Positions 4,419 through 29,873 of a stretch of 64,000 bases of DNA are shown piece by piece (position 1 is the first letter of the stretch; the number at the start of each line of letters is the position of its first letter). The notes under the pieces are model-generated. The model did not search any database. It was not told the DNA's origin and saw only the letters and a program-made list of their open reading frames with translations. Origin of the DNA: Fibrisoma limi BUZ 3 (GTDB taxonomy: Bacteria > Bacteroidota > Bacteroidia > Cytophagales > Spirosomataceae); assembly GCF_000296815.2 (NCBI RefSeq), contig NZ_CAIT01000009.1, positions 62,001 to 126,000 on the forward strand, written 5' to 3'. The translations under genes were made by a program, and so were the position numbers.

Positions 4419-4445
4419 GGGCCGTTAAAGGTCAAAAACAATGAA

Positions 4446-4478
4446 AATCCCCGGTCCGGTCGGGCCAAACCGGGGATT
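4446..4478 (-). terminator. intercistronic hairpin between lipoprotein and phytase genes
   Basis: A perfect 10-bp stem (4446-4455 with 4469-4478) is followed on the minus strand by TTTTC. It lies between the lipoprotein stop (4490) and the phytase start (4418). It may be a partial terminator or an mRNA 3'-end stabiliser that lowers phytase expression relative to the upstream genes. Confidence 0.6.
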
Positions 4479-4489
4479 GTGAGTGTACT

Positions 4490-5749: not shown

Positions 5750-5792
5750 GAGGTTTGCTTGTGATACGTGTTAATATGGTTGTCTATTAGTG

Positions 5793-12203: not shown

Positions 12204-12213
12204 TTCCTGAACC

Positions 12214-12858
12214 ATGATTTCCGGTATCAAGCCGACTACTGTTCTCATTGCTGACGATCATCAATTGTTTAACGAAGGTCTGCGCAACCTGCTTACCTTC
12301 GACGGAACTCCGTTCAGGGTTGTTGAGCAGGTTTACACCGGCTCAGACGTAATCCCCGCCATTCATACCTGGCGGCCGGATGTCGTGCTGCTGGATATCA
12401 ACCTGCCGCAACGTACCGGGCTTGACATTGCGCGGGAGGTGGTTCGGGAGTTTGCCAACGTTCGGGTGGTTATCGTTTCGATGTACAGCTACCAGAAATT
12501 CGTGGACGAACTAAAGGCAATCGGCGTAGCCGGCTATCTGCTGAAAAGCGCATCGCAGCAGGAGTTGATTTCCTGCCTGGATCATGTCATGCAGGGCGGC
12601 ACTTACTTTGATATTCGATTAGGCGGTAAAGCGGGTGATCTGCACCTGGAGGATGATTTTGTCAAGCGGTTCAAGCTTTCGCCCCGGGAGCTGGAAGTGA
12701 TCGTTCTGCTGAAAAACGGTCTGACAACGGCTGAGATTGCCCAGCGCCTGTTTCTGTCCGACGAAACGGTGAAGACCCACCGAAAGAACATTTATTACAA
12801 ACTCAATATCAACAGCCTCGCCGAATTGATCCGGTTTGCCAATGAACAGGGCCTGTGA
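12214..12858 (+). CDS. NarL/LuxR-family response regulator
   Basis: This 214-residue regulator has an N-terminal receiver domain (acidic pocket ADDHQ at 13-17, phosphoacceptor D61 in LLDINLP) and a C-terminal LuxR-type helix-turn-helix (about 148-208, LSPRELEVIVLLKNGLTTAEIAQRL, then DETVKTHRKNIYYKLNI). It begins 10 nt after the kinase stop, so the two are co-transcribed and form a cognate pair; HisKA_3 kinases typically pair with NarL-type regulators. The repeated GTTAACAAGC words upstream of the operon are the best candidate binding sites, which would make the pair autoregulated and/or a regulator of the divergent receptor operon (inference). Confidence 0.93.
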   Translation: MISGIKPTTVLIADDHQLFNEGLRNLLTFDGTPFRVVEQVYTGSDVIPAIHTWRPDVVLLDINLPQRTGLDIAREVVREFANVRVVIVSMYSYQKFVDELKAIGVAGYLLKSASQQELISCLDHVMQGGTYFDIRLGGKAGDLHLEDDFVKRFKLSPRELEVIVLLKNGLTTAEIAQRLFLSDETVKTHRKNIYYKLNINSLAELIRFANEQGL

Positions 12859-13616: not shown

Positions 13617-15668
13617 CTAACTGGTAAGATAGTGTTGCCATTGTGCCTCAATCAGAGGTTTCTTATTTGTCAGTTCGGCGCAAAAGCCCTGCCAAAGATT
13701 CTGAATATCAATAACATCCGGGTCACCAGACGCCATTTCTTCCAAACGTGCCATAACCTTTTCGAGCTTCGGCAGGCCCACCATCCGCAGCGTAGGCTTT
13801 AACTTATGGGCCAGCTGGCGAACCTCGGCCCATTGCTGCTCACGAATAAGTGGCTCAAAGGCGTCGAACTCCGGCAGAATCTGTTCCAGAAATGTCTGAA
13901 ACATATCGGCCGCATACTCCATATCGTCGCCGTAGAGGTTGGTGAGCTGCTGCTGATCCAGCACTGTCAGGTCGATGACAGTTGTAGTCGGCACGATTTT
14001 AGCCGACGCGTATTTCTGAAGCAGCTCCAGGAGGGTTGCCGGGTAGAACGGTTTACCAAGGAACTCATTCATACCGGCTGCGTGCAAGCTTTCCTGATGG
14101 TCCAGCATGGCCGAAGCTGATAACGCCACGATGGGAACCTGCTGGTTTGGATTGGGCTTTGTTCGGATTGACCTGGCGGCTTCGTACCCATCCAGAACGG
14201 GCATCTGAATGTCCATCAGAATGAGATCAAACCTCGACCGCTGGGTCACGTCTACCGCTTCCCGACCATTCCTCGCTATCTGGTACGTTACCCCCCACTT
14301 CGTCAGCAATGCGCTGACGTACCGCTGGTTCATCAGATTATCTTCTACCACCAGTACGTTCATTTGACTAACGAGGGCGGCCGATTCTGGGGTACCGGGC
14401 TGACTGCTCGCTTTACGCTTCACATACGGCAGCGAAATGGTGAATACACTACCCTGCCCTACAGCGCTCTGCACGCTGATCTGCCCCCCCTGCAAGTCGA
14501 CCAGTCGTTTGGCAATGGTCAGGCCAATACCTACCCCCTTCTGTTTTTGACCGAGGTGGCTGATTTGCTGAAACTTCTCAAAAATCTGTTCCCGTTTGTC
14601 GTCCGGGATACCCATTCCGGTATCCGCAACGTCAAACTCGATCCAGGCTTTATTGCCTTCCTGCTTTTGCAACCTGGCCGAAAGCCGGATTAGCCCGGCT
14701 TCGGTAAACTTTTCGGCATTGCTCAGCAGGGTATACAGGATACGGCGTAATAGGGAACTATCACCGACGAAGCTATCCGAAAGCCCATTGCCAATAGCAA
14801 GCTCAAAGCTAACCGACGACTTCGCCAGCTTATCTCTGAACTCGTTCGCCAGGGTCTCGAGCAAACCAGCTACGTTGAACGGTTCGGGTTGAACGTCAAT
14901 CCGAGCGGAATCAATTTTAGCCATGTCCAGCAGGTCAGAAACCAGCTCATGCAGAAAATCGGCCGATGACCTTAACATGTCGAGGTATTCCTGCTGCTGA
15001 ACAGACGGGGATGTATCGTACAGCAAATTGGTCATGCCAATAATGGCATTGAGGGGTGTACGCATCTCATGGCTCATGTTGGCCAGAAACTGATTCTCGG
15101 CGATCCGGGCCTCCTCGGCTAAACTTCGGGCTGATTCCAGCTCCTGTTCCAGTTGTTTGCGCTCCGTGAGATTATAGTGAATACCGATTGAGCCAACAAC
15201 CTGCCCTTTTTCATTCGTGATCGGGACGCCACTGACGAGCGCCCAGACGGTATGTCCATTTTTATGCAAAAGGGGTAATTCGTAGGAACTTGACTGGCCG
15301 TGTTTCCGCTTTTCCTGCTGTCTCTCAAGCACATCGGCATTCCCCGGTTTTACAAAAAGCTCACTGGCGTTTTTCCCAAGCAGTTCGTCCTCGCGGTAGC
15401 CAATCATCTGACAGAAGCGGTCGTAGGCCCGAACAATGATCTGGTCGTTGTCTACTTCAAGCAGACCCAGATCCATGTTATTCATGATCCCCCGGTACTT
15501 CTCTTCGCTTTTACGCAGTTGGTCAAGGGTGGTACTCACCTGAAGCAACTGCTCTTTGAGCACAGAAAGCTCATTGGTGCGTTGTTCCAGCATTTTCTCA
15601 GCCTGCATACGGGCAGTCTGCTCCTGCGCAGCCGAGACAGCTTCCGTATCAAGCTTTTTACGATTCAT
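13617..15668 (-). CDS. PAS-containing hybrid histidine kinase with receiver and HPt domains
   Basis: This 683-residue soluble phosphorelay protein has an N-terminal coiled coil (about 15-55), a PAS domain (about 55-170), and HisKA with FLANMSHEMRTPLN (His200). It continues with an HATPase (NAEKF, DTGMGIP, GVGIGLTIAKRLV), a receiver domain (VLVVEDN, phosphoacceptor in LILMDIQMP) and a C-terminal HPt domain (LAHKLKPTLRMVGL). No membrane segment or signal peptide is seen, so it senses inside the cell, probably through PAS. The HPt domain provides the final phosphotransfer, most simply to the LytTR regulator encoded one base downstream. The start is the ATG at 15668; the TTG two codons upstream is less likely. 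Confidence 0.92.
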   Translation of the reverse strand: MNRKKLDTEAVSAAQEQTARMQAEKMLEQRTNELSVLKEQLLQVSTTLDQLRKSEEKYRGIMNNMDLGLLEVDNDQIIVRAYDRFCQMIGYREDELLGKNASELFVKPGNADVLERQQEKRKHGQSSSYELPLLHKNGHTVWALVSGVPITNEKGQVVGSIGIHYNLTERKQLEQELESARSLAEEARIAENQFLANMSHEMRTPLNAIIGMTNLLYDTSPSVQQQEYLDMLRSSADFLHELVSDLLDMAKIDSARIDVQPEPFNVAGLLETLANEFRDKLAKSSVSFELAIGNGLSDSFVGDSSLLRRILYTLLSNAEKFTEAGLIRLSARLQKQEGNKAWIEFDVADTGMGIPDDKREQIFEKFQQISHLGQKQKGVGIGLTIAKRLVDLQGGQISVQSAVGQGSVFTISLPYVKRKASSQPGTPESAALVSQMNVLVVEDNLMNQRYVSALLTKWGVTYQIARNGREAVDVTQRSRFDLILMDIQMPVLDGYEAARSIRTKPNPNQQVPIVALSASAMLDHQESLHAAGMNEFLGKPFYPATLLELLQKYASAKIVPTTTVIDLTVLDQQQLTNLYGDDMEYAADMFQTFLEQILPEFDAFEPLIREQQWAEVRQLAHKLKPTLRMVGLPKLEKVMARLEEMASGDPDVIDIQNLWQGFCAELTNKKPLIEAQWQHYLTS

Positions 15669-15854
15669 TATCAAGAAGTGAGTGAAATAGTGACAAAAAT
15701 GCCAATTTGATTTACTTGCTTTTACAAGCTCCTGCTTAATCGCATAAAAATAATGTCAAAATACCATACAATAAACGCGAGGTGCTTTATTGAGGCTTAT
15801 TTTTAATTTATATTTAGCCAATTTCAGTAACAATTTATTTTTCGGGGGAGAATC

Positions 15855-15890
15855 CTACCAAAAAACGGGTGAAACCAGCAGTTCATCGAA
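15855..15890 (+). promoter_or_regulatory. shared 36-nt upstream element, copy 1 (exporter gene)
   Basis: This element runs from CTACCAAAAAAC to CAGTTCATCGAA. The same 36-nt arrangement recurs at 18125-18160 and 26955-26990. It ends 29 nt before a perfect -7 box, TACCTTTG (15920-15927), which itself sits in a palindrome, GTCAAAG-TAC-CTTTGAC (15913-15929). No -33 TTG is seen in the gap, as expected of an activator-dependent promoter. Confidence 0.7.
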
Positions 15891-15919
15891 AAAGCCAGCC
15901 TTCCGGCGGGTCGTCAAAG

Positions 15920-15927
15920 TACCTTTG
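15920..15927 (+). promoter_or_regulatory. -7 promoter box TACCTTTG
   Basis: Full match to TAnnTTTG, 25 nt before the ATG at 15953, with the shared 36-nt element just upstream. Confidence 0.65.
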
Positions 15928-15952
15928 ACTCATCCTTTCAGCCTCAATTGAC

Positions 15953-17980
15953 ATGAAAAATCTTTTGCTTGTCTTCACCCTGTTACTGAGCCAGCTTACC
16001 TGGGCACAATCTGAACTGAAACCCGGTTTCGACCTGCTCGAAGCGGGCAAGTTTGCCGAAGGCGCTTCATTCTTCAAAACGTATCTGACCACCAAAGACT
16101 CGACCAACCGTACGGCCCTGCTGTGCTACGGCCGGGGTATTGGTCTGTCGGGTAATGTTGCTGAGGCACAACAGGTGTTTCAGAAACTCCAGCAGCGCTA
16201 CGCCGACGATTTTGAAATTGGGCTGAACTGGGCCGAATCGCTCATGTGGGCGAAACAGTACGCCGAAGCAAAAACCTACTACGAAAAATTACTGACCCAG
16301 CAGCCTACCAACTTTGCAGCTACCCTCGGCTACGCCAACGCCCTTTCATCCCTGCACAGCTACCGTCAGGCCCTGACGTATGTGGAGCGGGCGAATTTGC
16401 TGCAGGCCGGTAACGCCAGCGCCCGCATCAGCCGGAAATACATCAAACTCGGCTTAGCCGACCAGCTCTCAAAAAACCAACAATATGGTGAAGCCGCCCA
16501 GTTGCTGGAAACCATCTTACAGGACTTCGCTAACGATAAAGACGCCCTCTTCGCCAAGGCGCAGATCCTCGTTACGCAGGAGCGTTATGCAGACGCTCAG
16601 CGCGTTTACCAGACGCTGGTCGAAAAGCCGGAGAACCAACCGAACGCTTACTTAGGTCTGTCGTATCTGTCGTTTCTGCAAAAGAAAAAGCAACAGGCAC
16701 TTACCTACGCCAATCAGGCAATTGCGGCTGCCAACGCCTATCCCGAAACGCAGTTAAAAGCGCAACTGGGTCGCGTGAGTGCGCTGGGCTGGAACGAAAA
16801 GTTCAGGCAGGCGTTTGCCCTGCTGGACTCCCTCGACAGCCGCTACCCCAACAACGTGGACGTTACGGTTTCCCGCGCCACCTTGTCGGTCTGGAACAAG
16901 CAGTACGCGAAAGGAGCCGAATTGTACCAGCAGGCCCTGCAACTGAAGCCCTCTTCCTTCGACGGTAATTTGGGCTACGCTGACGCCCGCCACGCCGAAG
17001 GGAACGATGCGGAAGCCTACCGCTACGTTCGCAAGACCCTGGAATTTTACCCCAACCAGTTGGACGCTACGCGGTTCATGCAGCGGCTCGACCTGGCTCA
17101 TAAACCCACCGTAACAACACAAGCTTTCGTTAGCCGCGATAACGGCAACAACGTATCGACGAACTACAGCCTGAATGCCGCCTTTGATCTGAACACCAAC
17201 TTCCGGGTGAACGTGGGCTACCGCGAACGGTACGTCGGTACGGTCAGCGAAGGCAGAAACGCCAATGTTAAAACCATGACGGCTGGTTTTCGGACGCGGC
17301 TGGCTCCGTTCTGGACGGTATCCGGAAACGCCGGATTGATCCGGTTGCAGAAAGACAGCACCGTCAGCCACCTGAACGTTAACATCACGAATGAGTTTAA
17401 GATTGGCCGCTACCAGATGGCCGATATTCGCTACAACCGCGATGCGCAGAACTTTACGGCAGGGCTCGTTGGCTATAATATCACCTACCACAACCTGATT
17501 GGTACCTACAACCTGGCCACGCCATTTAAACTGGGCTTTTACTCGCAGTACATCCACACCCTGTATTCAGACGATAACCAGCAGAAATCACTTTTCGCAT
17601 CGCTGTACTACGACCTGAAATACGCGCCGGTCATCAAAGCGGGTGTCAACGTGCAGTTGATGAGTTTCGCTCAACAACGGCCGGAAGTTTACTTCAGCCC
17701 CTCGCAGTTTATGTCGGTCGAGAGTTTCTTTCACATTGAAAACCTGACCATGCCCAAGCAGAAACTGCTGTATCAGGTAGCGCTCGCGGGGGGGGTGCAA
17801 CGCATTGAACAGGAAGCCTGGCAGCCTACGTACCGCCTGTCGTTTCAGAGCGGCTACCGACCGGCTAAAAATATAGAGATCATGGCATACGTCCTCAAAA
17901 GCAATATCGCTACATCCTCCGTTACGGGTTATTCGTACTCTGAAGCGGGATTAAAAGGAAGATGGGTGATTGTTAAATAA
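15953..17980 (+). CDS. TPR protein with C-terminal outer-membrane beta-barrel (putative exopolysaccharide exporter)
   Basis: This 675-residue protein has a signal peptide (1-18). About ten TPR-like helical pairs follow (about 20-385, e.g. NWAESLMWAKQYAEAKTYYEKLL and the PSSFDGNLGYADARHAEGNDAEAYRYV unit). The C-terminal 280 residues show alternating beta strands typical of an outer-membrane barrel (YaiO-like), though the end (RWVIVK) is not aromatic. Periplasmic TPR plus barrel is the architecture of polysaccharide exporters such as BcsC, PgaA and PelB. No direct sequence relation to those is claimed. It is followed by a strong terminator and lies next to genes for a flippase and glycosyltransferases, so export of the glycan made by this locus is the likely job. 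Confidence 0.78.
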   Translation: MKNLLLVFTLLLSQLTWAQSELKPGFDLLEAGKFAEGASFFKTYLTTKDSTNRTALLCYGRGIGLSGNVAEAQQVFQKLQQRYADDFEIGLNWAESLMWAKQYAEAKTYYEKLLTQQPTNFAATLGYANALSSLHSYRQALTYVERANLLQAGNASARISRKYIKLGLADQLSKNQQYGEAAQLLETILQDFANDKDALFAKAQILVTQERYADAQRVYQTLVEKPENQPNAYLGLSYLSFLQKKKQQALTYANQAIAAANAYPETQLKAQLGRVSALGWNEKFRQAFALLDSLDSRYPNNVDVTVSRATLSVWNKQYAKGAELYQQALQLKPSSFDGNLGYADARHAEGNDAEAYRYVRKTLEFYPNQLDATRFMQRLDLAHKPTVTTQAFVSRDNGNNVSTNYSLNAAFDLNTNFRVNVGYRERYVGTVSEGRNANVKTMTAGFRTRLAPFWTVSGNAGLIRLQKDSTVSHLNVNITNEFKIGRYQMADIRYNRDAQNFTAGLVGYNITYHNLIGTYNLATPFKLGFYSQYIHTLYSDDNQQKSLFASLYYDLKYAPVIKAGVNVQLMSFAQQRPEVYFSPSQFMSVESFFHIENLTMPKQKLLYQVALAGGVQRIEQEAWQPTYRLSFQSGYRPAKNIEIMAYVLKSNIATSSVTGYSYSEAGLKGRWVIVK

Positions 17981-18007
17981 ATCGTTACCTACCGTTTACT
18001 TGGATCG

Positions 18008-18041
18008 GGGCCGCTGCAGCATTGCAGTGGCCCTTTGTTTT
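18008..18041 (+). terminator. intrinsic terminator of the TPR-barrel gene
   Basis: An 11-bp stem (18008-18018 with 18023-18033) has a 4-nt loop and is followed by TTTGTTTT. It ends the transcript that began at the -7 box at 15920, so this gene is monocistronic. Confidence 0.85.
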
Positions 18042-18124
18042 GGGAGTCGCGCCAACAACCCCTGAGCGTACCAGCATCTGTAGATACGTTTTATTGATAA
18101 TAGCTAACTAAAATCCCCGGAAAG

Positions 18125-18160
18125 TTTTCAAACACCCGCCGATTTCTGTCATTCATCGAA
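18125..18160 (+). promoter_or_regulatory. shared 36-nt upstream element, copy 2 (STAS-flippase operon)
   Basis: This copy shares the ACCCGCC-type centre, TTT, and the TTCATCGAA end with the copies at 15855 and 26955. It ends 28 nt before GACATTTG (18189-18196), one base from the -7 consensus, itself 19 nt before the ATG at 18216. Confidence 0.6.
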
Positions 18161-18188
18161 AAAGCCCCGTAAAAGGCCATATAAGGCT

Positions 18189-18196
18189 GACATTTG
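18189..18196 (+). promoter_or_regulatory. -7-like box GACATTTG
   Basis: Seven of eight positions fit TAnnTTTG, and the box keeps nearly the same spacing to the shared 36-nt element as at the other two promoters of the locus. Confidence 0.5.
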
Positions 18197-18215
18197 ACTA
18201 TAAATCAAAGCCATT

Positions 18216-18575
18216 ATGAAGACGGAAATGCTACGTAACCTGGAAGTCGAGAAAGACGTATTCGTATCCAACAATAACCTGACCCATGTTTTCCGGCTCA
18301 GCGGCCATCTGTGCTCTACGGATGCTCTTTGGCTAAAAGAAACCCTGCGCAGCTTCGAGTACTCCGAAACGATCCTGCTGGACCTCAGCAACGTCGTGAA
18401 AACGGATCTGATTGCTGTCAATGCGGTGGCGACAGGCCATAAAAAACACACACTCCGCGTTGTGATGCCCGCCAGCCCCGAAGCCGCCGAAATCTTCTAC
18501 CTGACCAAATTCACGCAGATTCTGAACCTGATTCCTTCGCTGCCTGTCGTTCATGAAAACGAAGTTTACGCTTAA
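18216..18575 (+). CDS. STAS-domain protein lacking the phosphorylatable serine
   Basis: This 119-residue protein covers a STAS-like fold: VFRLSGHLCSTDALWLKETL (about 25-45), ILLDLSNVVKTDLIAVNAV (54-72) and TLRVVMPASPEAAEIFYLTKF (79-99). In anti-sigma-factor antagonists the segment after LDLS carries the conserved D-S-S/G regulatory serine. Here it reads VVKTDLIAV, so the phosphosite is absent. It overlaps the flippase gene by 23 nt and shares its promoter, which suggests a regulatory or scaffold role in glycan assembly rather than stress signalling. Similarity is by pattern and short length, so the family call is moderate. Confidence 0.68.
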   Translation: MKTEMLRNLEVEKDVFVSNNNLTHVFRLSGHLCSTDALWLKETLRSFEYSETILLDLSNVVKTDLIAVNAVATGHKKHTLRVVMPASPEAAEIFYLTKFTQILNLIPSLPVVHENEVYA

Positions 18576-19821
18576 GAACGGCCAGTTGCTGGGCGATGGC
18601 GCGATCCTGATGATCAGCGCCCTGTTGGTCAACATCGGCAACTACGCCTTTAATCTGGTCGCGGGTCGGCTGGTGAACCCGGCGGTCTTTGGCGAGGTTA
18701 GTCTGCTGGTAACCATGCTGCTGGCGTTGTCGTTCGTTGCGATGGCGTTTCAGTTGACAGCCTCCCGATTTACGGACGCCCGTGCTTTTTTGATGCAGGC
18801 GGCCTGGCGAAGCGGCCTGGTGCTCGCGGTAGTCTTCATTGCGTTAGGTAGCGCCGTTCAGCGATTCTTCCAGTTATCGTCTTCTCTACCACTGGTTATC
18901 CTGGCCTTGTCGATTCCTGTATATTTCGCGATGAGTGTCGGACGGGGTTCGCTGCAAGGTAAGCTGAACTACCGCCGATTAGCCGGTACGTATCAGGTTG
19001 AGATGTGGGTACGGCTGGCGTTAGGGCTGGGTCTGATCGCCCTTGGCTGGGGCGGCATGGGCGTTTCGGTCGGCTTACTGGTTTCGCTGGTAGCCTGCTA
19101 CGTGTTAGCCCAATCGAATGCGACCCGCCAGTCGGCCGAGGAAACAACACCCTCCGAACGAAAACTGATCGGGGCGTTTTTCGCCACTACGCTGCTGTAC
19201 GAACTTAGCCAGATCCTGATCAACAACAGCGACGTTTTGCTGGTAAAACACTATTTCAACGGTCACGACGCCGGGCTGTATACGGCGCTGTCGATGATCG
19301 GTCGGGTGGTGTATTTTGGAACGTGGTCGGTCGTGATGGTGCTGTTTCCGAAAGTGGTTGAACAAAAACAGAAAGGCTTGCCCACCACTCATCTGTTCTG
19401 GGGTAGCCTTGGAATTGTCGGAATTATTTCCGCCCTCGTCGTGTTGGCCTGTCTGGTTCTGCCGACCCTGATCGTAACTGTTCTGTTTGGCGATCAATAC
19501 CTAACTGTTAGTCCGTATCTGTGGCGGTATGCCCTGGCCACGACCTTCTTTGCCCTGGCCAACGTGTTTGTGTATTACCACCTTTCGCTCGACCGCCGGA
19601 CGCCCGTCCTGCTTTCCGTACTGGCCGGTATGCTGCAAATCGGTTTGATCCTGATCTGGCATGAGTCCTTTACGCAGGTGGTCAATTGTCAGGTCGTTGC
19701 CATGCTGGTCCTGTTTCTGTCGCTGGTTGTGTATCACGCTATCGTCGCGCTTTCCGCTCGTTCAGCAGCCGCACAAAATGCAGATAGTACCAGTCTACAA
19801 TATCAGCCATCGGCAGCGTAA
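18553..19821 (+). CDS. polysaccharide flippase / polymerase-associated MOP-family transporter
   Basis: This 422-residue membrane protein has about twelve hydrophobic helices. It starts with MISALLVNIGNYAFNLVAGRLVNPAVFGE, the N-terminal helix and loop typical of Wzx/PST flippases of the MOP superfamily. Other support is the LYELSQILINNSDVLLVKHYF segment and the paired helices in the second half. Its role is to move a lipid-linked or growing glycan across the inner membrane. Its start overlaps the STAS gene (operon). Its 3' end overlaps the convergent GT4 gene by 83 bp; both C-termini look genuine. Cofunction with the GT4, GT2 and exporter of this locus is inferred from clustering and the shared promoter element. 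Confidence 0.88.
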   Translation: MKTKFTLKNGQLLGDGAILMISALLVNIGNYAFNLVAGRLVNPAVFGEVSLLVTMLLALSFVAMAFQLTASRFTDARAFLMQAAWRSGLVLAVVFIALGSAVQRFFQLSSSLPLVILALSIPVYFAMSVGRGSLQGKLNYRRLAGTYQVEMWVRLALGLGLIALGWGGMGVSVGLLVSLVACYVLAQSNATRQSAEETTPSERKLIGAFFATTLLYELSQILINNSDVLLVKHYFNGHDAGLYTALSMIGRVVYFGTWSVVMVLFPKVVEQKQKGLPTTHLFWGSLGIVGIISALVVLACLVLPTLIVTVLFGDQYLTVSPYLWRYALATTFFALANVFVYYHLSLDRRTPVLLSVLAGMLQIGLILIWHESFTQVVNCQVVAMLVLFLSLVVYHAIVALSARSAAAQNADSTSLQYQPSAA

Positions 19822-20941
19822 CCGACGCGAAATAGTTGTTGGTAGCCAGTTCCCGGCGGTACGTGTCATCTTCCAGCACCCGCTGAATGGCATCGGCCAG
19901 GCTTTCGACGTTGTCCGGCTCAAAAAATGCGCCATCGTAACCTTCTTCTTTCACCAGTTGGCCAAGGTCGCCGATGTTGGGCAGAATAGCCGCCCGCCCG
20001 TAGCTACCGGCCTGGTGCAACACGCCCGAGCTACCGGTAGTGCTGGTATACGGAAACACAACCACGGCGCTTTCCCCGAAAATGCGCGGCACGTCTTCTT
20101 CAGCCACGTAGCCCGTAAAGCGTAGTTGCGGTACGTGCGCGTATTTCTGCTTCATCTCGTCCAGATAACCGGCTTTGTTGGGGCTGTCCGTACCCGCAAT
20201 CACAATTTCCATATCCAGTGTAGTCCGGCTACGAACCAGTTCAACGGCTTCGATCATGGCTTCGACGCGCTTATACGTACCGAATTTGCCGAACGTCATG
20301 ACCTGCATCGGACCGGGCGGCAAGGCAAAATCCGGCATGGGCGGCAACTCAAAACTACCGTGCGGCACCAGGGCTACGTTTTTAGCATTGTATTTTTTCT
20401 CCAGCACCTGCACGTACTTGGCGATCGTTACCGTGACCAGATCGGCGCTCAGGATGAAGCGTGTCAGCATGGACCCAATAAACTGGTAAGCCGCCGAAAG
20501 GACCGGGTTTTTCGTAATCCCGGCCGCTCCGAGATCCACCTCCTCCAAAATGTTATGCAGCAGAACTACGGACGGATAGCCGGCTTTTTTGACCAGAAAC
20601 GGCGTCTGTAGACCCAGGGCGGCCGGTATTTTCTGATCGCCGAAAAACAGAAACTGAATATTGAACAACACCACATCCGGCTTCGTCCGCCGAACGGCCT
20701 GTAGGATATTGACGGGGTTCGACCAGTTGTTGAACTGCCAGACGGCCTCGACACGAATGGGGCATCCCTCATCGTCGAAGGTATAGTGCTGACCAGCGGG
20801 GAGTTTATCCGCAATCAGAATAACCTCTTTGACATCCGGGTTCCGGCGAAAATGCTGCACCAGATAAAAGCCGTATTCATTCAGGGTACCCTTGCCCGGT
20901 GGGTAGGTAGAGACGATGGCGACACGTAGCGGTTGTGACAT
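19739..20941 (-). CDS. GT4-type (GT-B fold) glycosyltransferase
   Basis: This 400-residue cytoplasmic glycosyltransferase has a GT-B fold. The N-terminal half starts VAIVSTYPPGKGTLNEYGFYL (acceptor side). The C-terminal half has VMTFGKFGTYKRVEAMIEAV (about 215-235), the FPYTSTTGSSGVLHQAGSYGRA donor-binding segment with its E-like position replaced by local residues, and LADAIQRVLEDD. It is the last gene of a four-gene minus-strand group (26849 to 19739) and begins 24 nt after the stop of the GH-A hydrolase gene. Sugar donor and acceptor are unknown. In this setting it would build or extend the repeating unit on the cytoplasmic side. Confidence 0.88.
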   Translation of the reverse strand: MSQPLRVAIVSTYPPGKGTLNEYGFYLVQHFRRNPDVKEVILIADKLPAGQHYTFDDEGCPIRVEAVWQFNNWSNPVNILQAVRRTKPDVVLFNIQFLFFGDQKIPAALGLQTPFLVKKAGYPSVVLLHNILEEVDLGAAGITKNPVLSAAYQFIGSMLTRFILSADLVTVTIAKYVQVLEKKYNAKNVALVPHGSFELPPMPDFALPPGPMQVMTFGKFGTYKRVEAMIEAVELVRSRTTLDMEIVIAGTDSPNKAGYLDEMKQKYAHVPQLRFTGYVAEEDVPRIFGESAVVVFPYTSTTGSSGVLHQAGSYGRAAILPNIGDLGQLVKEEGYDGAFFEPDNVESLADAIQRVLEDDTYRRELATNNYFASVTLPMADIVDWYYLHFVRLLNERKARR

Positions 20942-20965
20942 AGCGTGGTTGTTTTAAGGAGAAGT

Positions 20966-22543
20966 TTACGGTTTCAAGACGTTTACTACGGGTTTCGGCT
21001 GGCCATCCGCGCGTAGAATACCAAAATGTTTCTGCGGCTCCCGCTGCCAGGGCTTATTGCCGACAATATCTGGAGGTACTTCGGTGAAATCGTACAGTGT
21101 CCAGAGCAGATACGGAATGTTCCTGTTTCGCTTCAACACATCCCTTACCCGACTGACGTAGTTTTCCTGATCCGCTTCCGACTTCCCGAACGGCGCCCAC
21201 ACGCCCCGGTAGGTTGGCTGACCGAACTCTTCCAGCATGAGCTTCTTCTGCGGTACTTTCCGTCGCAGATCGGCAATGCCCTGTTCCAGTTGCTCCAGCG
21301 ACCGGTATGAGTGAAAGGACACAAAATCTACCTGATTGGCCAGCAGGTGCGCATTTTCAGGATACGCCCAGCCAATGGTGATCAGGTGATTGGGATCAAA
21401 CTGCCGGGCACGGCCCGCGATCCAGTTCAGCCATTCTTTTACGTCGTCGGGATCGTGGTGCTTAAAGTCCAGATCCGGTTCGTTTTTCAGGTCCCAGGCC
21501 AGCAACGCCGGGTGCCTGTTCAGTCGGGTCAGGATTTGTTCGAGCTGGCGATCCGTAGCGGTCAGGTTCAGCAGCCGGTAATCGCCCACGAAGTCAAACA
21601 GCGTAACAAGTACTTTCAGGTTTTGGTCGTCGGCCAGATCGAGCAGGTTTTCAAGCTGGTCGAGCCGTTCGGGAGGTACCTTGCCCTTGCCGAAGTCATG
21701 GAAGTTGACAAACACCCGTGCGGTATTCAGACCCAGCTCACGAATCCGGCGAAAATCCGCCTTGATCACCTTCGGGTCGTATTGCTTCCAGAACAGCGAC
21801 CAGGGCGATTTCTGTGGGTAATAATTCACCCCGGCTGGAAAGAAGGGCCGGCCATTGACCACAAACTGGTTTTCCTCCATTCGCACAAATCGGGCGCGAT
21901 CGGTGGGCTCAACCTGAGGGATACGTAACGGGGCCGCTTCCTGCCGAACCATATGTTTGATCCGCCAGTAGCCATCGTCGAGCAGCATCACGACCTGATA
22001 ATCAGCCACCGACTGGTCCGTATACAATTTCTCCTGCGTATCCGTTCGATACAGCCGTTGCTTCAGCAACAGGTGGTGGTCCGTAAAGGAAACAATCTGG
22101 CCATCAGCGGAATAAAAATGCAGTTGAAGGTAATGATCCACGTCGGTTTGGTGCAGCCGGTGGCCCTGTTGCGTCAGTTCGGTCACGGACGCCGTCGCTT
22201 TCGGTAGGGCGTCGGTGGTAAAGTATTCCTTCATGCCGATGGGCTTCCCCGCCAGGTAGCTCAGTTGCCACTGGTACCACGCCCGGACGTAATCGCCGAC
22301 GATTTGCTCCCGGGTAAAATCTTCCATCGGCCGACCCGTTGCGGAATCGTCGGGAAGCCAGACCACCCGAGGGGTGTGCGATTCGAGCATGACGGTGGTC
22401 AGGTTCAGGGCTTCTTCGCGCTTAGCACCACTGTTGACGTATACCCAAAATTGTCCCACAGCCGCGACGAGCAGCGCCACCACCGCCAGTCCCGACGACC
22501 CGATCAATACTCGTGAATACGGTTTACTGATAACCACAGGCAC
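20966..22543 (-). CDS. membrane-anchored GH-A clan glycoside hydrolase with NTF2-like N-domain
   Basis: This 525-residue protein has an uncleaved N-terminal helix (about 12-36), then an NTF2-like domain (about 60-200, ending VVMLLDDGYWRIKHMVRQ). A GH5/GH2-like TIM barrel follows (about 218-525) with ENQFVVNGRPFFPAGVNYYP, the acid/base in LKNEPD (E355) and the nucleophile in LMLEEFGQP (E439). Both catalytic glutamates are present, so an active periplasmic beta-glycosidase or transglycosidase is expected. Such enzymes in exopolysaccharide loci trim polymer or clear it from the periplasm, as PelA and BcsZ do. The start is a GTG (22543), 11 nt after the upstream gene's stop. Confidence 0.85.
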   Translation of the reverse strand: MPVVISKPYSRVLIGSSGLAVVALLVAAVGQFWVYVNSGAKREEALNLTTVMLESHTPRVVWLPDDSATGRPMEDFTREQIVGDYVRAWYQWQLSYLAGKPIGMKEYFTTDALPKATASVTELTQQGHRLHQTDVDHYLQLHFYSADGQIVSFTDHHLLLKQRLYRTDTQEKLYTDQSVADYQVVMLLDDGYWRIKHMVRQEAAPLRIPQVEPTDRARFVRMEENQFVVNGRPFFPAGVNYYPQKSPWSLFWKQYDPKVIKADFRRIRELGLNTARVFVNFHDFGKGKVPPERLDQLENLLDLADDQNLKVLVTLFDFVGDYRLLNLTATDRQLEQILTRLNRHPALLAWDLKNEPDLDFKHHDPDDVKEWLNWIAGRARQFDPNHLITIGWAYPENAHLLANQVDFVSFHSYRSLEQLEQGIADLRRKVPQKKLMLEEFGQPTYRGVWAPFGKSEADQENYVSRVRDVLKRNRNIPYLLWTLYDFTEVPPDIVGNKPWQREPQKHFGILRADGQPKPVVNVLKP

Positions 22544-22554
22544 TTCGTTCCAAA

Positions 22555-23760
22555 TTACTTTACATTAATAATCAACACTACCTTTCGGCCGCCAACGGTC
22601 AGTTCGACACTGTGCGGTCCGGTTGTCACACCGGTCAGGTCCGCTTCTGCATAGCCGCCAACCGTTTCAATCGCCAGGGGGTCCCGATCATCGATCTGGA
22701 CAGTAACCGCTGTACCATTCGGTACCAACTGGTCCAGGCTTTCGGTCAGTGGGCCTATCCGTAGCAGGCGTCGTTTCTGATCAACCTGCACCGGTATGCG
22801 CTTCAGATTCTCAGGAAACGAAAGCGTCAGTACGTTACTTTTTCCCGCCCCGAAAACTGACGCGCTTATACGCATAGAGCCCTCATAGCCGGGGTTTTCC
22901 AACGACACTTCGGCCACACCCCGTAGCGTGTAGCCCTTGACGATGCGAACGGTTTTGTTGGGGTCCAGGCACTGAAACCGGACCAACGTTCCGTCCGACA
23001 CCACATTGCCGTAGGAATCGGTCAACACATTTGTTCGCACCCGAAAGTTCTGACGCTGGTCAGCCAGCGGGGTGTAGTTCGATGCCTGGATGGTAAAATT
23101 GACCGGAAACCCGGGCACCTCCAGCAATTCTTTCTCCTTACCCGATACGTTCTCGGCCCGCACCCCGACAATAGTTTTCCCCGTACTGGTCTGCGCCGTA
23201 ATACGCTGATACGCTACCAAATGGTGCGTCTGCGCCATTCGTTCGTCACGTTGTCCATTCGGCCGCAGAAACCGAAACTGCACCGGCGTCGTAGCTTTTA
23301 CGGGGTTCCCCAGGCTATCCGTCGGGATGGCCGTAATCATAGACCAATGCTGCCCATCGGCCACAATCGACTTGGCGCCGAGGTAGAGGTCCAACGGCTG
23401 GGCGGTTTGCTGGGGAACAACCCGTACCGTTTGCGTCCCTACCAGGGTATTCCGATGCCAGACCCGTAGCACCTGAGCGCCCGAGCGGGCAGTCCAGGCA
23501 ACCGGCAAAGCCACGTTCAACGCGGCACCATCCACCGGCTGCGCCATTGTCTGCGTTCCCCATCCACCCTGCCAGGACAACATTATTGATTCCCCCAGAT
23601 TAATTCGCTGGGTTTTGATCTGAACTGTCAGCGGCTGACCGGCCACCACCGAATCGGGTACAAGCAGCGTCACCGAACCCGCAGCCACCTGCTGCGGAGG
23701 ATCATCGCAACCCGTCAGCAGGGCCACACACAGCCAACCGTATCTTGCGAATCGCTTCAT
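22555..23760 (-). CDS. lipoprotein with Ig-like repeats
   Basis: This 401-residue protein starts at the ATG 23760, whose ATGA overlaps the TGA of the upstream gene. The N-terminus (RYGWLCVALLTGC) is a lipoprotein signal with Cys18. The remainder is all-beta with recurring PVQFRFLRPNG, GTLVRFQCLDPNK and PGYEGSMRIS segments. These resemble bacterial Ig-like / invasin-type modules (about 100 residues each), ending in a domain with VTVQIDDRD and GPHSVELTVGG. No enzymatic motif is visible. The translational coupling suggests it works with the large membrane protein encoded just before it, for example as a periplasmic scaffold or outer-membrane accessory lipoprotein. The longer frame reaching 24000 is an overlap artefact. 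Confidence 0.75.
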   Translation of the reverse strand: MKRFARYGWLCVALLTGCDDPPQQVAAGSVTLLVPDSVVAGQPLTVQIKTQRINLGESIMLSWQGGWGTQTMAQPVDGAALNVALPVAWTARSGAQVLRVWHRNTLVGTQTVRVVPQQTAQPLDLYLGAKSIVADGQHWSMITAIPTDSLGNPVKATTPVQFRFLRPNGQRDERMAQTHHLVAYQRITAQTSTGKTIVGVRAENVSGKEKELLEVPGFPVNFTIQASNYTPLADQRQNFRVRTNVLTDSYGNVVSDGTLVRFQCLDPNKTVRIVKGYTLRGVAEVSLENPGYEGSMRISASVFGAGKSNVLTLSFPENLKRIPVQVDQKRRLLRIGPLTESLDQLVPNGTAVTVQIDDRDPLAIETVGGYAEADLTGVTTGPHSVELTVGGRKVVLIINVK

Positions 23761-26700
23761 TCCCCGATGTATGAGTTGACCACAAACTGAACAAAGCCGT
23801 GCAACGTTGGAATCAACTCCGATCGATCCGCGTTGGTATACGGCGGTCGGAACGTTTCCTGCGGCAGTCCATTCACGAAAAACTGCGACGATCGCCCTTC
23901 CTGAATACGTTCTATATGCTGAAGGTCCGGCAGCGGCATCGCAAACGTCTCCTTCCGCTGCGGCCGAACCCCTTCCTGCAAAAACCGGTGATCCACCCAT
24001 ATAATGCGCTGGGCACTGTCGTAAGTCGCCATCAGGATCTGCGGCACGCTGATTTCGAGCGTACCCTGGTTGCTGATCTGCCCCGTTGCGAGTTGCTGAT
24101 CTGATACTGATACCTGCTGAATTTCAGCATCGCGGTAGAGGTCTTTGTCGGCCACCACCGCCCGCGCAAAGACCTTGAACGTAACTGGCTTACGCTCAAA
24201 TTTGAACGCCGTAAATTCATTGGGATTGAACTGCCCGGGATTCTTGTCGTCTTCTTTAACCCAGGCCGTTTCCTCGAAATCAACCCGGAACGGAATAATT
24301 TCCTTGGGCAAGACCTTGTGCGACGTAGTGTATTTGGCGTTGTAGCTCACCAGCATCCGCCCCCGCCGATCAAACAATTGCGCTTCGATGGTAACGTGAG
24401 CCGGTACGTAGTCGGTGTTTTGTAGCTCACCAACAACAACGTAACGGTCCTGAAACCGCACCAGACTGGCCGACAGGATGTACATCTCCGGGCGATCCAT
24501 GATATCTTCGTGCAGGGTCGTGGCCGTCGTTACGGTTCGTTTACCCTGATTCCGCATGGCCGGTACGCCTTTGATCAGAAACTGATCGGGGGCCGTGGCT
24601 GCCGGGGGGGCCGACGGCATAATCCACCACTTGCCATCCCGCTCAACCAGTTCGTGTGGGGTTTCGACAATGTATTCATCCAGCGGAGTAACGTATTTCT
24701 GCGTAACGACCGCCTTGACCCGGTTTCCGATTCGCTCTTTCACGCGAACAGCCATCGAATCGAGCTTACTATACGATGCCACCAGGCCATCGCGAACGGA
24801 GAGCTGCAGGATGTATTCGTCGAAGCTCATCGTCGGCTCGAAGTAGTTGTATGCTTCGCGGAAGTATTTGAAATCAAGAGCGTTGTAATACGCTTTTAAG
24901 GTTGACTCGGGTGTTTTCTGCGGAAACGGCTCGGAGTTCTTCAGCCAGACAGCCGCCAGCAGCGCAACCACGCCCATCAGCCAGGTTATCCAGATGAGCC
25001 GCTTGCCCGGCAGGATACGGATCAACAACGTACTCATCAGATACGGCTGCTGTATCAATTTCCCGGCGCGTTTGCGCTCCCGGAGCAGATCGGCAAGGTA
25101 CGTCTGCGCCGGGAATCGGTACAGGCGACTTCGGAGCGAGGTATATACCCAGACAATCACCATCATGGCCAGCGCCGACAGGGGCAGGATGCCCCACATC
25201 AGTTTCTGATACTTCGGCATATCCTTGCTCGGCAGGAACGACGGCAACGGCGGTACGTCCTGTTTCTGCCAGACCAGAATACCATTTTCCAGCCGCTGCA
25301 CGCGCTCCCACCCGGCGAAATACAGCATGGGGTCATAGAACTTGTCGTTCGAAAAAATAAACTTGAGGTGGTATTTTTCCGGTACGGTCAGAAACTGCTG
25401 CAAGGAACCAATCCCCTGAATACCTTTGAATTTAGCGTTTTCGAGCCGCTCGATGGGTGTTACGGTCAATTCGATCACCCGACGGGCCGAGTGGTAGTTG
25501 CCGTCGATGGACAGGGCTGTAGTCTGCGCCGAGAGCCAGGCCATCTGGTCGCCAAAGCCGAGCGTCAGAAACCGCCAGCGGCTGTGCATGTCGCGGTCCA
25601 GAAAATTCAGAATTGGCTGTACGTCGATGGGTTTGGGTTGCAGCGGACGAATCCGGCCAAGATTGACAATAAGCACTGTGGTTAAACTGACCGCAGCAAT
25701 CAGACCTCCCAGCAGCAGCCGGTAGCGCCACCGTTGCCCGCGTTCGATCAGCGTTTGCCGCCAGTCGCCTTCCAGTAACCGCTGAAACAGTTCGCCCACG
25801 AACGGAATAGCCAGCACCGACGCCCAGAACGTAAAGCGATCGAGGGTCAGAATATCAAATGCGTTGGCCCCCAGAATCTTCTTCGGAATTGGGGTTGTGC
25901 CGCCCGTTCCCAGCAGCAGCAGCAAGGAAAACGACAGCGCCATGAACAGATTCCGACGGATGTAGAGCCGCCGGAATACGTACGGCAGCAACAGCAGCGT
26001 AGTGCCGAGTGGTATCAGGAAAAACATCAACCCCGACGATGGTACGTTGATGAACGAATCGCGTGACCCGTGCGGAATCGGCACCTGCGTAATCGGGTCG
26101 GTTTTCGACCAGTACCAGTACGGAAAGATAATCGTGACCATCAGCACGCCCACCCCAACGCCAAAAATGATCAGGTATTTGAGTCGTTTGAACACAATCC
26201 CGATCAGCCGCTGAACCACCTTAACCAAATTACCACTCGGCCCGACTTCGTCCAGCAGCGCCACACCAATCATTGGTACGATAAAGAATACCATTCCGAA
26301 GAGAGTGGTAACATGATGAGATGCTACGGTTACCCCCAGCAGCGACCAGGCCCGGAATAACCGTGGCCATTCGAGAGTACGAACGTAGGTGTAAACCTCG
26401 GGCAGAACGTTGGTGAGGCAGGCGATTCCGCACAGGGTTGGCAGTTGGCCGTAGATGTGAATCGTCTGAACGATGCTGGAGGCAAAAACCGCGAACAAGG
26501 CGGCATACCCAGCCGCCTGCTCCGACACCCACAGGCGTGAAAACCGGTAAATACCCAGCACGAAACCGCTCACGGCAAGCAGGACCACAATGGCAAACCC
26601 GAATTTAAGTCCACCGATAAAAGACAGTAAGGCAATGAGTTGATGTGCCAGGGGCGGGTAGCTTGTGATGGTAAAACCCGTATACCAGCGATACTCCCAG

Positions 26701-26849
26701 GGCTCGAACCACGACCGGGCGTAGTGATCGGCAAAGAAGATATGCACATATGCGTCGTAGGTTCCATCGAGCGTGAAGAACAACGCCGAGCCGTGGAAAC
26801 ACAGAACCAGCAATAAGGCAATCTTTACTAATGTGGTTGATTTGGGCAT
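23757..26849 (-). CDS. large GT-C-like membrane protein (PTPS-related/YfhO-type) with periplasmic C-terminal domains
   Basis: This 1030-residue protein has about 12 helices in the first 400 residues, plus helices near 555-575 and 625-645. The first periplasmic loop carries LDGTYDAYVHIFFADHY (D28 and D32), placed like the catalytic acidic pair of GT-C transferases. The fold resembles the 6-pyruvoyl-tetrahydropterin-synthase-related membrane family, whose name is historical and does not imply a pterin reaction. The C-terminal part holds an NTF2-like domain (about 650-745, STLKAYYNALDFKYFREAYNYF, then DGKWWIMPS) and an FxLYD-like beta domain (about 785-860). GT-C enzymes use polyprenyl-phosphate sugars, and the divergent gene at 27075 looks like the maker of such a donor. 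Confidence 0.75.
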   Translation of the reverse strand: MPKSTTLVKIALLLVLCFHGSALFFTLDGTYDAYVHIFFADHYARSWFEPWEYRWYTGFTITSYPPLAHQLIALLSFIGGLKFGFAIVVLLAVSGFVLGIYRFSRLWVSEQAAGYAALFAVFASSIVQTIHIYGQLPTLCGIACLTNVLPEVYTYVRTLEWPRLFRAWSLLGVTVASHHVTTLFGMVFFIVPMIGVALLDEVGPSGNLVKVVQRLIGIVFKRLKYLIIFGVGVGVLMVTIIFPYWYWSKTDPITQVPIPHGSRDSFINVPSSGLMFFLIPLGTTLLLLPYVFRRLYIRRNLFMALSFSLLLLLGTGGTTPIPKKILGANAFDILTLDRFTFWASVLAIPFVGELFQRLLEGDWRQTLIERGQRWRYRLLLGGLIAAVSLTTVLIVNLGRIRPLQPKPIDVQPILNFLDRDMHSRWRFLTLGFGDQMAWLSAQTTALSIDGNYHSARRVIELTVTPIERLENAKFKGIQGIGSLQQFLTVPEKYHLKFIFSNDKFYDPMLYFAGWERVQRLENGILVWQKQDVPPLPSFLPSKDMPKYQKLMWGILPLSALAMMVIVWVYTSLRSRLYRFPAQTYLADLLRERKRAGKLIQQPYLMSTLLIRILPGKRLIWITWLMGVVALLAAVWLKNSEPFPQKTPESTLKAYYNALDFKYFREAYNYFEPTMSFDEYILQLSVRDGLVASYSKLDSMAVRVKERIGNRVKAVVTQKYVTPLDEYIVETPHELVERDGKWWIMPSAPPAATAPDQFLIKGVPAMRNQGKRTVTTATTLHEDIMDRPEMYILSASLVRFQDRYVVVGELQNTDYVPAHVTIEAQLFDRRGRMLVSYNAKYTTSHKVLPKEIIPFRVDFEETAWVKEDDKNPGQFNPNEFTAFKFERKPVTFKVFARAVVADKDLYRDAEIQQVSVSDQQLATGQISNQGTLEISVPQILMATYDSAQRIIWVDHRFLQEGVRPQRKETFAMPLPDLQHIERIQEGRSSQFFVNGLPQETFRPPYTNADRSELIPTLHGFVQFVVNSYIGE

Positions 26850-26954
26850 TCGTCAGGTATCACCATTCTCCATCAGGTAGTGCAAAAATAGTGCTAAGCC
26901 ACGTAGCGCCGGCAAGTTACCAAAAACTGCGACCTGATTAACTCAAGACAAAAA
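26850..26954. other. divergent intergenic region of the exopolysaccharide locus
   Basis: This is the upstream region of the minus-strand operon starting at 26849. It holds a partial copy of the shared element's A-rich part (TTACCAAAAACTGCG at about 26915-26930). No separate promoter box for the minus strand is clear. Confidence 0.4.
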
Positions 26955-26990
26955 CTACCAAAAAACCGCCAGTTTACGCAGTTCATCGAA
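26955..26990 (+). promoter_or_regulatory. shared 36-nt upstream element, copy 3 (GT2 gene / divergent operon)
   Basis: CTACCAAAAAACCGCC starts this copy and CGCAGTTCATCGAA ends it. It matches copy 1 at both ends over exactly the same 36-nt length. It ends 29 nt before CAACTTTG (27020-27027), one base from the -7 consensus. It lies in the region shared with the divergent four-gene operon and could serve both. Confidence 0.7.
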
Positions 26991-27019
26991 TACTCGCCAT
27001 ACACCGGGCAAAACGAAGC

Positions 27020-27027
27020 CAACTTTG
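27020..27027 (+). promoter_or_regulatory. -7-like box CAACTTTG
   Basis: Seven of eight positions match TAnnTTTG. The distance to the shared element is identical to that at the exporter promoter. Confidence 0.5.
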
Positions 27028-27074
27028 TCTCAACGAAAACGCAGAAGAAACAAAACATTAGCCCATCTAACTCC

Positions 27075-27857
27075 ATGAAATTCGGTATCGTAATCCCCTG
27101 CTACAATGAAGCTAATCGGTTGAACGTCCAGGCTTTTACCGCTTTCGCTAACCAGAATCCAGACTACCAGCTCTGCTTCGTCAACGACGGCAGCCGCGAT
27201 AATACGCTGGAGGTCCTCGAATCCCTGCACCAAACCAACCCTGACCAGATTACAGTGTTCGACTGCCCCAGAAATGGTGGTAAGGCTGAAGCCGTTCGGC
27301 AGGGGGTACAATACCTGTACGACAACACGAACCTGAATTACATCGGTTTTCTGGACGCTGACCTGTCAGTAAGCCTGGAAGACTTTACCGAGCTGGCCGA
27401 AACCCTGGCCCGCGATAACAGTCTGAAAATCGTTTGCGGATCACGGGTGAAGCGGCTTGGTGCCGAAATCAGCCGGAACCTGAAACGCCACATCATCGGC
27501 CGGACGATGGCTACCCTCATCAGCACGCTGTTGCAGATGCCGTTCTACGACACGCAATGCGGTGCTAAAATTTTCCACCGCTCGCTGGTACCGGTTGCGT
27601 TTGGCGAGAAGTTCCAGAGCGCCTGGCTGTTCGACGTCGAGATGTTCTTCCGTATGAAGCAGTACTACGGCCTGAACCCAGCCATGAACATGATCTACGA
27701 ATTTCCCCTGCGTCGCTGGATTCACATGGAAGATTCAAAAATTGGCGCCAGTGATCTGTACAAAATTCCGGTTCATCTGCTGCGCATCGATTTCCACTAC
27801 CAGATTCGTCCCCGGCTGCAGGAGTTCCGTCTTCAACTGGTTCCCCAGGCTGTTTAA
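27075..27857 (+). CDS. family 2 glycosyltransferase, polyprenyl-phosphate-glucosyltransferase-like
   Basis: This 260-residue GT-A enzyme starts FGIVIPCYNEANRL. It has FVNDGSRDNT (about 36-45), the metal-binding DADLS motif (95-99), and the GSRVKRLGAEISRNLKRHIIGR and TQCGAKIFHRS segments. These are characteristic of dolichyl/undecaprenyl-phosphate glucosyl- and mannosyltransferases (ALG5/DPM1-like). No C-terminal membrane helices are present, unlike the GtrB type. The expected reaction is transfer of a hexose from a nucleotide sugar to undecaprenyl phosphate at the inner face of the membrane. The product would feed a GT-C enzyme, for which the divergent gene 23757-26849 is the obvious candidate (inference). 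It has the same promoter element as the exporter and flippase genes. Confidence 0.87.
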   Translation: MKFGIVIPCYNEANRLNVQAFTAFANQNPDYQLCFVNDGSRDNTLEVLESLHQTNPDQITVFDCPRNGGKAEAVRQGVQYLYDNTNLNYIGFLDADLSVSLEDFTELAETLARDNSLKIVCGSRVKRLGAEISRNLKRHIIGRTMATLISTLLQMPFYDTQCGAKIFHRSLVPVAFGEKFQSAWLFDVEMFFRMKQYYGLNPAMNMIYEFPLRRWIHMEDSKIGASDLYKIPVHLLRIDFHYQIRPRLQEFRLQLVPQAV

Positions 27858-29658: not shown

Positions 29659-29873
29659 TGTACATTAATTCACTGCATGAAGATAGGCAGTAGCCGGGAT
29701 TTGGAACATGAAGTTTTTGTGAAGTCCACCCCATTGACCTGAGACGTGGGTAATGAAGCATTGACTGGAAATTTGATAATTCTCAGATACAATAGGCTCC
29801 ATTGCGGTTCGCATCCCTTAATTTTACAAGACGGTCTGCGTCCGGCGCGGGCCTCTTTGCTTTCCTGTATTGT

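Follow-up and report, generated by a model that had tools for sequence, protein, structure and literature searches.

The gene cluster and its products

The window analysed here is a 64 000-nucleotide stretch of the 7.6-Mb genome of Fibrisoma limi BUZ 3 (G000:C6:62001-126000). Its subject is a cluster of eight genes, with a histidine kinase gene alongside, which we treat as a cassette for making and secreting a polysaccharide. The initial annotation, made from the window sequence, had described these genes as a candidate exopolysaccharide assembly and export system. All eight reading frames were recovered where it had placed them, and its observation is confirmed and was understated: the fusion of a receiver domain to the family 2 glycosyltransferase (GT2) and the neighbouring nitric-oxide sensors, both found in relatives, are new here and had been missed. 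The features, in window coordinates, are:

13617..15674, minus strand: hybrid histidine kinase, PAS-HisKA-HATPase-REC-Hpt (Pfam); divergent from the exporter gene, putative cassette member
15953..17980, plus strand: exporter, periplasmic TPR superhelix and 16-strand outer-membrane beta-barrel (model, structure matches)
18216..18575, plus strand: STAS-domain protein (Pfam STAS, E 0.0031, below cut-off)
18553..19821, plus strand: MOP-superfamily flippase (Polysacc_synt_3, E 6e-12)
19739..20941, minus strand: family 4 glycosyltransferase, GT4 (Pfam GT4 domains)
20966..22543, minus strand: membrane-anchored glycoside hydrolase, GH5/GH-A barrel (Pfam, alignment, hydropathy)
22555..23760, minus strand: immunoglobulin (Ig)-like, invasin/Big_1-like lipoprotein (Invasin_D3 and Big_1 matches below cut-off)
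23757..26849, minus strand: 1030-residue membrane glycosyltransferase of probable GT-C fold, NTF2-like domain at about 641-749, beta-rich C-terminus at about 790-1030
27075..27857, plus strand: GT2, putative polyprenyl-phosphate-sugar synthase, here lacking a receiver domain

Most of the domain labels held. Pfam found the TPR repeats of the exporter, whose barrel is seen in the model, the Polysacc_synt_3 domain of the flippase, the GT4 and GT2 domains, and the GH5/GH-A domain of the hydrolase. The STAS and Ig-like labels stood in the weaker sense that their Pfam matches fall below cut-off. With its start at 23760, the lipoprotein gene is coupled to the GT-C gene, whose stop codon it overlaps in an ATGA. 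As the annotation had said, none of the eight proteins matched Pfam families for Wzy, Wza/Wzc, BcsA or an initiating phosphoglycosyltransferase; the Wzx/Wzy parts were sought among these eight proteins, the genome elsewhere being unsearched.

In the hydrolase, a single hydrophobic segment at the N-terminus and a conserved N-terminal domain accompany the GH5/GH-A barrel, whose residues Glu355 and Glu439 do not vary across the alignment (20 of 20 sequences). Its Pfam matches are GH5, GH2_C and GH42 only, and the PDB profile matches listed (60 of 80) include GH5, GH2-type and GH158 enzymes. GT4 has the highest mean column identity of the cassette-family alignments (66%, 21 sequences). Searches of PDB sequences gave no relative of the Ig lipoprotein or the flippase at E 0.1, and none of the GT-C protein at E 1. 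A phospho-serine usually follows the conserved Asp of STAS domains; in the window and several relatives hydrophobic residues stand there, so these STAS proteins may not be switched by serine phosphorylation.

Conservation of the cassette

The cassette recurs in Spirosomaceae, Chitinophagaceae and Flavobacteriaceae. Within the family of the window organism, 14 of 150 genomes, its own included, gave a strong match to the GT-C protein and two more a weak one (E 2e-4 to 3e-4); it was not found in a second genome of the same genus. tblastn of 13 relative loci detected all eight proteins in L025, L026, L029 and L031. In L027, L028, L030 and L032 no STAS protein was detectable and the exporter is cut at or beyond the locus end, and L024, L036 (truncated) and L033-L035 (divergent) yielded fewer cassette proteins. 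When named genomes were scanned with two peptide patterns, at least 528 stretches matched, and 80 distinct loci were kept from them; L038, L039, L041 and L042 come from the same genomes as L029, L024, L032 and L026 and are counted both in the 80 and in the 69 that are well flanked. All seven large genes (GT2, GT-C, Ig lipoprotein, hydrolase, GT4, flippase and exporter) occur together in 63 of the 69. Across the 80, an Ig lipoprotein homologue was detected in 79 and a STAS homologue in 52.

Across a fixed set of 296 genomes from the phylum, the GT-C, flippase, GT4 and hydrolase subfamilies were present in the identical 10 genomes with zero discordance, at thresholds of E 1e-30 (GT-C, flippase, hydrolase) and E 1e-40 (GT4). 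These counts are tallies, with matches listed for 30 of the 296 genomes and at most 2 candidates scored per genome for GT-C and 6, 6 and 5 for the other three. Pairwise correlations between the distance matrices of six cassette genes, over 56 loci and the window, ranged from r = 0.85 to 0.955, a range that includes shared species history; the four repeat loci and those lacking single copies of all seven genes had been dropped from this set. The GT2 matrix correlated with those of the other genes at only 0.39-0.48, the pattern expected from exchange between receiver-fused and plain GT2.

These results bear on whether the genes are merely unrelated neighbours, assembled by chance or by a general clustering of envelope genes. 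The set is incomplete in the fetched stretch of six of the 69 well-flanked loci, where flippase and exporter are missing (with GT4 also missing in three), and we found no other support for that explanation. Set against the tblastn loci, the exact co-occurrence in 10 of 296 genomes, the 63 complete loci and the matrix correlations, it is so improbable that we rejected it. The genes thus belong together, as the initial annotation had supposed: the co-occurrence check found the set elsewhere.

In the GT-C and GT4 trees the window copy groups with L029, L031, L037 (Foetidibacter) and L043, and in the flippase tree first with L029 and L031, of its own family. The cassette is patchy and may have moved between lineages. 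A scan of viral contigs gave no relatives of the GT-C protein. No description of the cassette was found in the accessible portion of the open-access PubMed Central (PMC) literature, and the available part of a Cytophagaceae genome paper contains neither 'exopolysaccharide' nor 'nitric oxide' (PMC6258284).

Export and proposed assembly of the polymer

The exporter was modelled with a predicted local distance difference test score (pLDDT) of 92.5 as a TPR superhelix followed by a 16-strand barrel, the architecture of TPR-barrel polysaccharide exporters. Its best structure matches are PelB, PgaA and BcsC, with PelB at the top but tied with the other two, and its sequence gives a sub-threshold match to the model for PgaA (E 1e-18). 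The comparison with PelB that the initial annotation proposed therefore places it in the PelB/PgaA/BcsC type, and there is good support for regarding the cluster as a cassette for polysaccharide secretion, with export of the PelB type. Two gene families lie near the exporter. One, in 29 loci (for example L069:16376-18481, L088:12131-14149), has a type IX secretion C-terminal domain in the one member scanned. The other, a DUF4184 (phospholipase C-like) gene, adjoins the exporter gene or that of the receiver-fused GT2 and spans 12 loci (including L025:7275-8108, L026:13029-13775, L034:2206-2952).

The window GT2 has 260 residues and no hydrophobic membrane segment in a simple hydropathy scan. 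Its NCBIfam matches to PpgS, PgfS and ArnC are all below cut-off, and its PDB matches include structures of ArnC and of sll0501, which we take to be a lipid-phosphate-sugar enzyme. In 14 of the 80 loci a member of a phosphomannose isomerase-like family adjoins GT2 or the short frame next to it (one member checked by Pfam), and in L035 a mannose-1-phosphate guanylyltransferase-like gene stands between GT2 and GT-C. The short frame, a second GT2-like one of 136-174 residues, adjoins the receiver-fused GT2 in 20 flavobacterial loci (for example L064:8102-8581, L070:8081-8569). In Flavobacterium psychrophilum a GT2 gene, fpgA, has been studied by mutation (PMC4293000).

The initial annotation called the 1030-residue protein GT-C-like, with NTF2-like and FxLYD-like domains. 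The first two were borne out by structure comparison of a middling model, which aligns with STT3, PglB, ArnT and AftA and contains the NTF2-like domain; the FxLYD match, at 19.6 bits where the cut-off is 23, is weak, as is the Pfam match to PTPS_related. The GT-C likeness emerged from a second structure comparison, beyond the uninformative top rows of Foldseek. On this model the protein would supply the GT-C-fold transferase of a three-component glycosylation system. The STT3/PglB likeness could also be read as transfer of glycan to surface proteins or lipids, the GT-C protein moving sugar to protein and the TPR barrel secreting the product. We consider this improbable, since the exporter best matches the polysaccharide exporters PelB, PgaA and BcsC and the cassette keeps a glycoside hydrolase with both Glu residues conserved. 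A neighbouring family in its favour was seen only in flavobacterial loci, a range limited by the locus ends.

A more serious competitor follows the Pel system, whose parts list PelABCDEFG (Pseudomonas aeruginosa and others) includes a PelA hydrolase/deacetylase and a PelD receptor for cyclic di-GMP (c-di-GMP). Here GT4 would polymerise the chain in the cytoplasm, the MOP flippase would carry it through the inner membrane in the role proposed for PelG, GT2 and GT-C would only decorate it, the hydrolase would trim it and the TPR barrel would export it. The TPR-barrel exporter, GT4, MOP-type membrane protein, periplasmic hydrolase and lipoprotein mirror the Pel parts, and the tied top match to PelB agrees. 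So do two fusions: flippase and exporter form a single 1086-residue frame in one draft genome (L040:19152-22409), which may be a sequencing artefact, and hydrolase and GT4 a single 971-residue frame in another (L026:6594-9506; also seen as L042). Together with the receiver-GT2 fusion these frames link parts of the cassette physically, the last two being single examples.

Against this stand the family searches. For 20 cassette flippases searched at E <=10, where HMMER filters drop most matches above 0.1, the listing gave 11 families, none of them PelG (PF16933), and PelG had 0 matches in the genome of the window, with a positive Thermotoga maritima control. The extra N-terminal domain of PelF-type GT4 proteins, which we take to be DUF3492, was absent from the window GT4, the one protein searched, which had only generic GT4 domains at E 0.01. 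The hydrolase is GH5/GH-A-like instead of PelA-like, and no PelD c-di-GMP receptor domain was seen in the eight cassette proteins, the rest of the genome being unsearched. No Pel-specific family was matched, and membership of the Pel group is rejected on the PelG, PelF-type, PelA and genome results. Unlike Pel, the cassette also has an extra GT2 and GT-C arm, STAS and receiver/nitric-oxide genes in place of a c-di-GMP receptor, and a flippase that is apparently replaceable by GtrA.

That replacement is seen in a variant lineage (L033, L034 and L035; 3 of 150 family genomes), where the GT-C proteins of L033 and L035 are 67% identical to that of L034. No cassette MOP was found in the three whole variant genomes at E 1e-10, whereas three same-family controls had one each, and a GtrA-type protein adjoins GT4 (by Pfam in L033, by reading the sequences in L034 and L035). 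GT4, GT-C and GT2 are kept, and the exporter is homologous in the two loci where it is seen (E 3.5e-41). The variant hydrolase lacks the barrel and keeps the anchored N-terminal domain (profile match E 2.4e-10), and the variant has a short Ig lipoprotein (E 1.8e-8). A single GtrA query, run on the 80 named loci, labelled none of their genes. The simplest reading, which is not proof, gives MOP and GtrA one and the same role as lipid-sugar flippase. It makes doubtful the claim that the MOP flippase moves a finished chain. GtrA in place of MOP, with no hydrolase domain, points to lipid-sugar-fed assembly in the periplasm, although the variant may make a different polymer. Taken with the missing PelG and PelF features, these three genomes make the Pel-like scheme rather unlikely. 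Of the Pel-analogous hybrid first proposed, the exporter type and the GT2 and GT-C arm are supported and a specific Pel kinship is not. Lipid-sugar-fed assembly in the periplasm is favoured over a Pel-like route.

Other known systems resemble the cassette in part. The cellulose and poly-N-acetylglucosamine systems BcsABCZ and PgaABCD differ in that the cassette GT2 is no multi-span synthase and has no predicted membrane segment. Three-component systems (GtrA/GtrB/Gtr, CsbB/GtcA/YfhO, GT136) likewise combine a GT2, a flippase and a GT-C protein with extra periplasmic domains, and GtrA-type proteins occur in three cassette relatives. The available part of PMC11127046 offers such systems as precedent for the GT2 and GT-C arm. 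In the known systems the sugars added are mostly side groups on a polymer that other machinery makes (PMC11127046), whereas here the set comes with an exporter, a hydrolase and a GT4 of its own. A GtrA/GtrB pair is required for a glucan, according to the portion of PMC7117936 available. The GT136 'MATE' transporter was considered as a precedent for flipping by a MOP protein and dropped, because that same part of PMC11127046 models it with four helices, unlike a MOP flippase.

Proposed lipid-sugar supply and nitric-oxide sensing

A GT2 is present in 77 of the 80 loci, and in 57 it bears a receiver (REC) domain fused to its N-terminus (Pfam on one). A strict receiver motif filter was passed by 54 of 64 REC-GT2 proteins, and eight of the ten misses (all but L082 and L099), when read, carry the DD, D-x-N-M/L and K residues. 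In addition, 11 of the 12 family relatives examined have, next to the cassette, kinase genes together with genes for heme-nitric oxide/oxygen-binding (H-NOX) proteins, FIST (NosP-type) proteins or both, identified by Pfam for some and BLAST for the rest; G035, whose contig ends inside the cassette, was left out of this count.

Relatives with a nitric-oxide sensor by the cassette: G010, G058, G092, G021, G022, G034, G049, G094, G017, G038, G019

The order exporter, H-NOX, kinase, FIST, kinase holds in L025, L119, L120 and L121, where kinases 42-44% identical to the window kinase (13617-15674) lie near the exporter. Exporter, H-NOX, kinase and FIST are also consecutive in L026, with gaps of 12, -1 and 0 bases from the stop codons. 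The H-NOX proteins inspected, a set without the flavobacterial ones, all have His104 and YxSxR at 133 (9/9), which we take as the heme-type H-NOX motif, and some of the nearby kinases are hybrids with Hpt domains. Thus, the arrangement of H-NOX/NosP signalling, a heme-type H-NOX or FIST protein next to a kinase, was found in those 11 of 12 relatives.

In such signalling, H-NOX or NosP inhibits its kinase when nitric oxide is bound (PMC6769237, from the part available), and NosP uses a FIST domain (PMC12570481, likewise). The cassette shares the placement of sensors beside kinases; unlike the outputs given in the accessible literature, which are c-di-GMP enzymes or quorum-sensing relays, the receiver here is fused to a glycosyltransferase. 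The pairing of a STAS protein with phosphorelay control at a polysaccharide locus recalls the syp locus of Vibrio fischeri. Domain fusion and gene order suggest that a phosphorelay controls the lipid-sugar step in the relatives. In the window's own genome a single FIST (NosP-type) gene lies about 0.52 Mb from the cassette (G000:C6 ~604,970-607,640; L118:6970-9645), with a kinase frame beginning 9 bases past its stop codon. With neither receiver nor H-NOX at the window, the regulatory reading applies to relatives.

In the mechanism we propose, GT2 would load a hexose, perhaps mannose, onto polyprenyl phosphate, and the flippase (MOP here, GtrA in the variant) would turn the lipid-sugar to the periplasm. 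The GT-C protein would add the sugar to a glycan, or polymerise it, with GT4 supplying primer or backbone; the anchored hydrolase would trim the chain, the Ig lipoprotein would help to hand it over and the TPR barrel would secrete it. In relatives, a relay from H-NOX or NosP through a hybrid kinase to REC-GT2 would gate the lipid-sugar step post-translationally. The window organism would have reduced control, with a related kinase adjoining the cassette, the NosP-type gene and its kinase about 0.52 Mb away, and a GT2 without a receiver. On balance we think it probable that this is a self-contained exopolysaccharide assembly-and-secretion cassette of Bacteroidota, with lipid-sugar-fed assembly and, in relatives, a phosphorelay gate.

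Besides the six incomplete loci, several points weigh against this reading. The GT-C model is middling (pLDDT 62, predicted template modelling score 0.49); its top Foldseek rows are unrelated beta proteins, with AftA at rank 24, and its best GT-C match is an oligosaccharyltransferase, a class that uses lipid-diphosphate oligosaccharides. In NCBIfam the poly-GlcNAc synthase PgaC/IcaA scores highest for GT2 (59 of the 422-bit cut-off, residues 4-123), above the lipid-phosphate-sugar families, and a chondroitin synthase is among its PDB matches. GT4 matches generic GT4 domains only, and the role given to it here is putative. Mannose is suggested by neighbouring genes in related genera, and the flippase-exporter frame of L040 would allow that the MOP protein moves something larger than a lipid-sugar. 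On the regulatory side, the window GT2 has no receiver domain, H-NOX was not found in the window's genome, and G127 has no H-NOX or FIST in the fetched stretch. Among the 80 named loci, H-NOX or FIST lies in the fetched flank of only six and an Hpt-like gene in 13; compared with 11 of 12 family relatives, this makes the nitric-oxide link strongest in the window's family.

We can extend the reading, tentatively and at less than even likelihood, to a distinct assembly route that is neither Wzx/Wzy, ABC nor synthase. The GT-C protein would polymerise a periplasmic chain from polyprenyl-phosphate-sugar, coupled to the PelB-type exporter, and nitric oxide would gate the lipid-sugar supply via a phosphorylated receiver on GT2, bypassing c-di-GMP.

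Elsewhere in the window, a GH43 hydrolase with an F5/8 type C domain lies 3' of the cassette (29802-31688) and was not seen among its recurrent neighbours. A sensor combining two-component propeller repeats and a histidine kinase in one piece is followed by a LuxR-type response regulator (9069-12858), and an unassigned frame separates a phytase gene from a nearby TonB-dependent receptor gene (3318-8546).

Slime made by Bacteroidota shapes particles and biofilms in sea and fresh water, and the search for its genes usually turns to Wzx/Wzy loci. We found the cassette in two Zunongwangia species (L060, L061) other than the strong slime producer Zunongwangia profunda, for which the available part of a paper describes two polysaccharide clusters, one Wza/Wzc-type and one lipopolysaccharide-type (PMC4332637). 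If our reading is true, many species, probably hundreds, would hold an unrecognised export machine, and REC-GT2, with nitric-oxide sensors nearby in many relatives, would connect the sensing of a gas to polymer synthesis in few steps. Both forms found in nature, MOP with hydrolase and GtrA without, bear on what the flippase moves.

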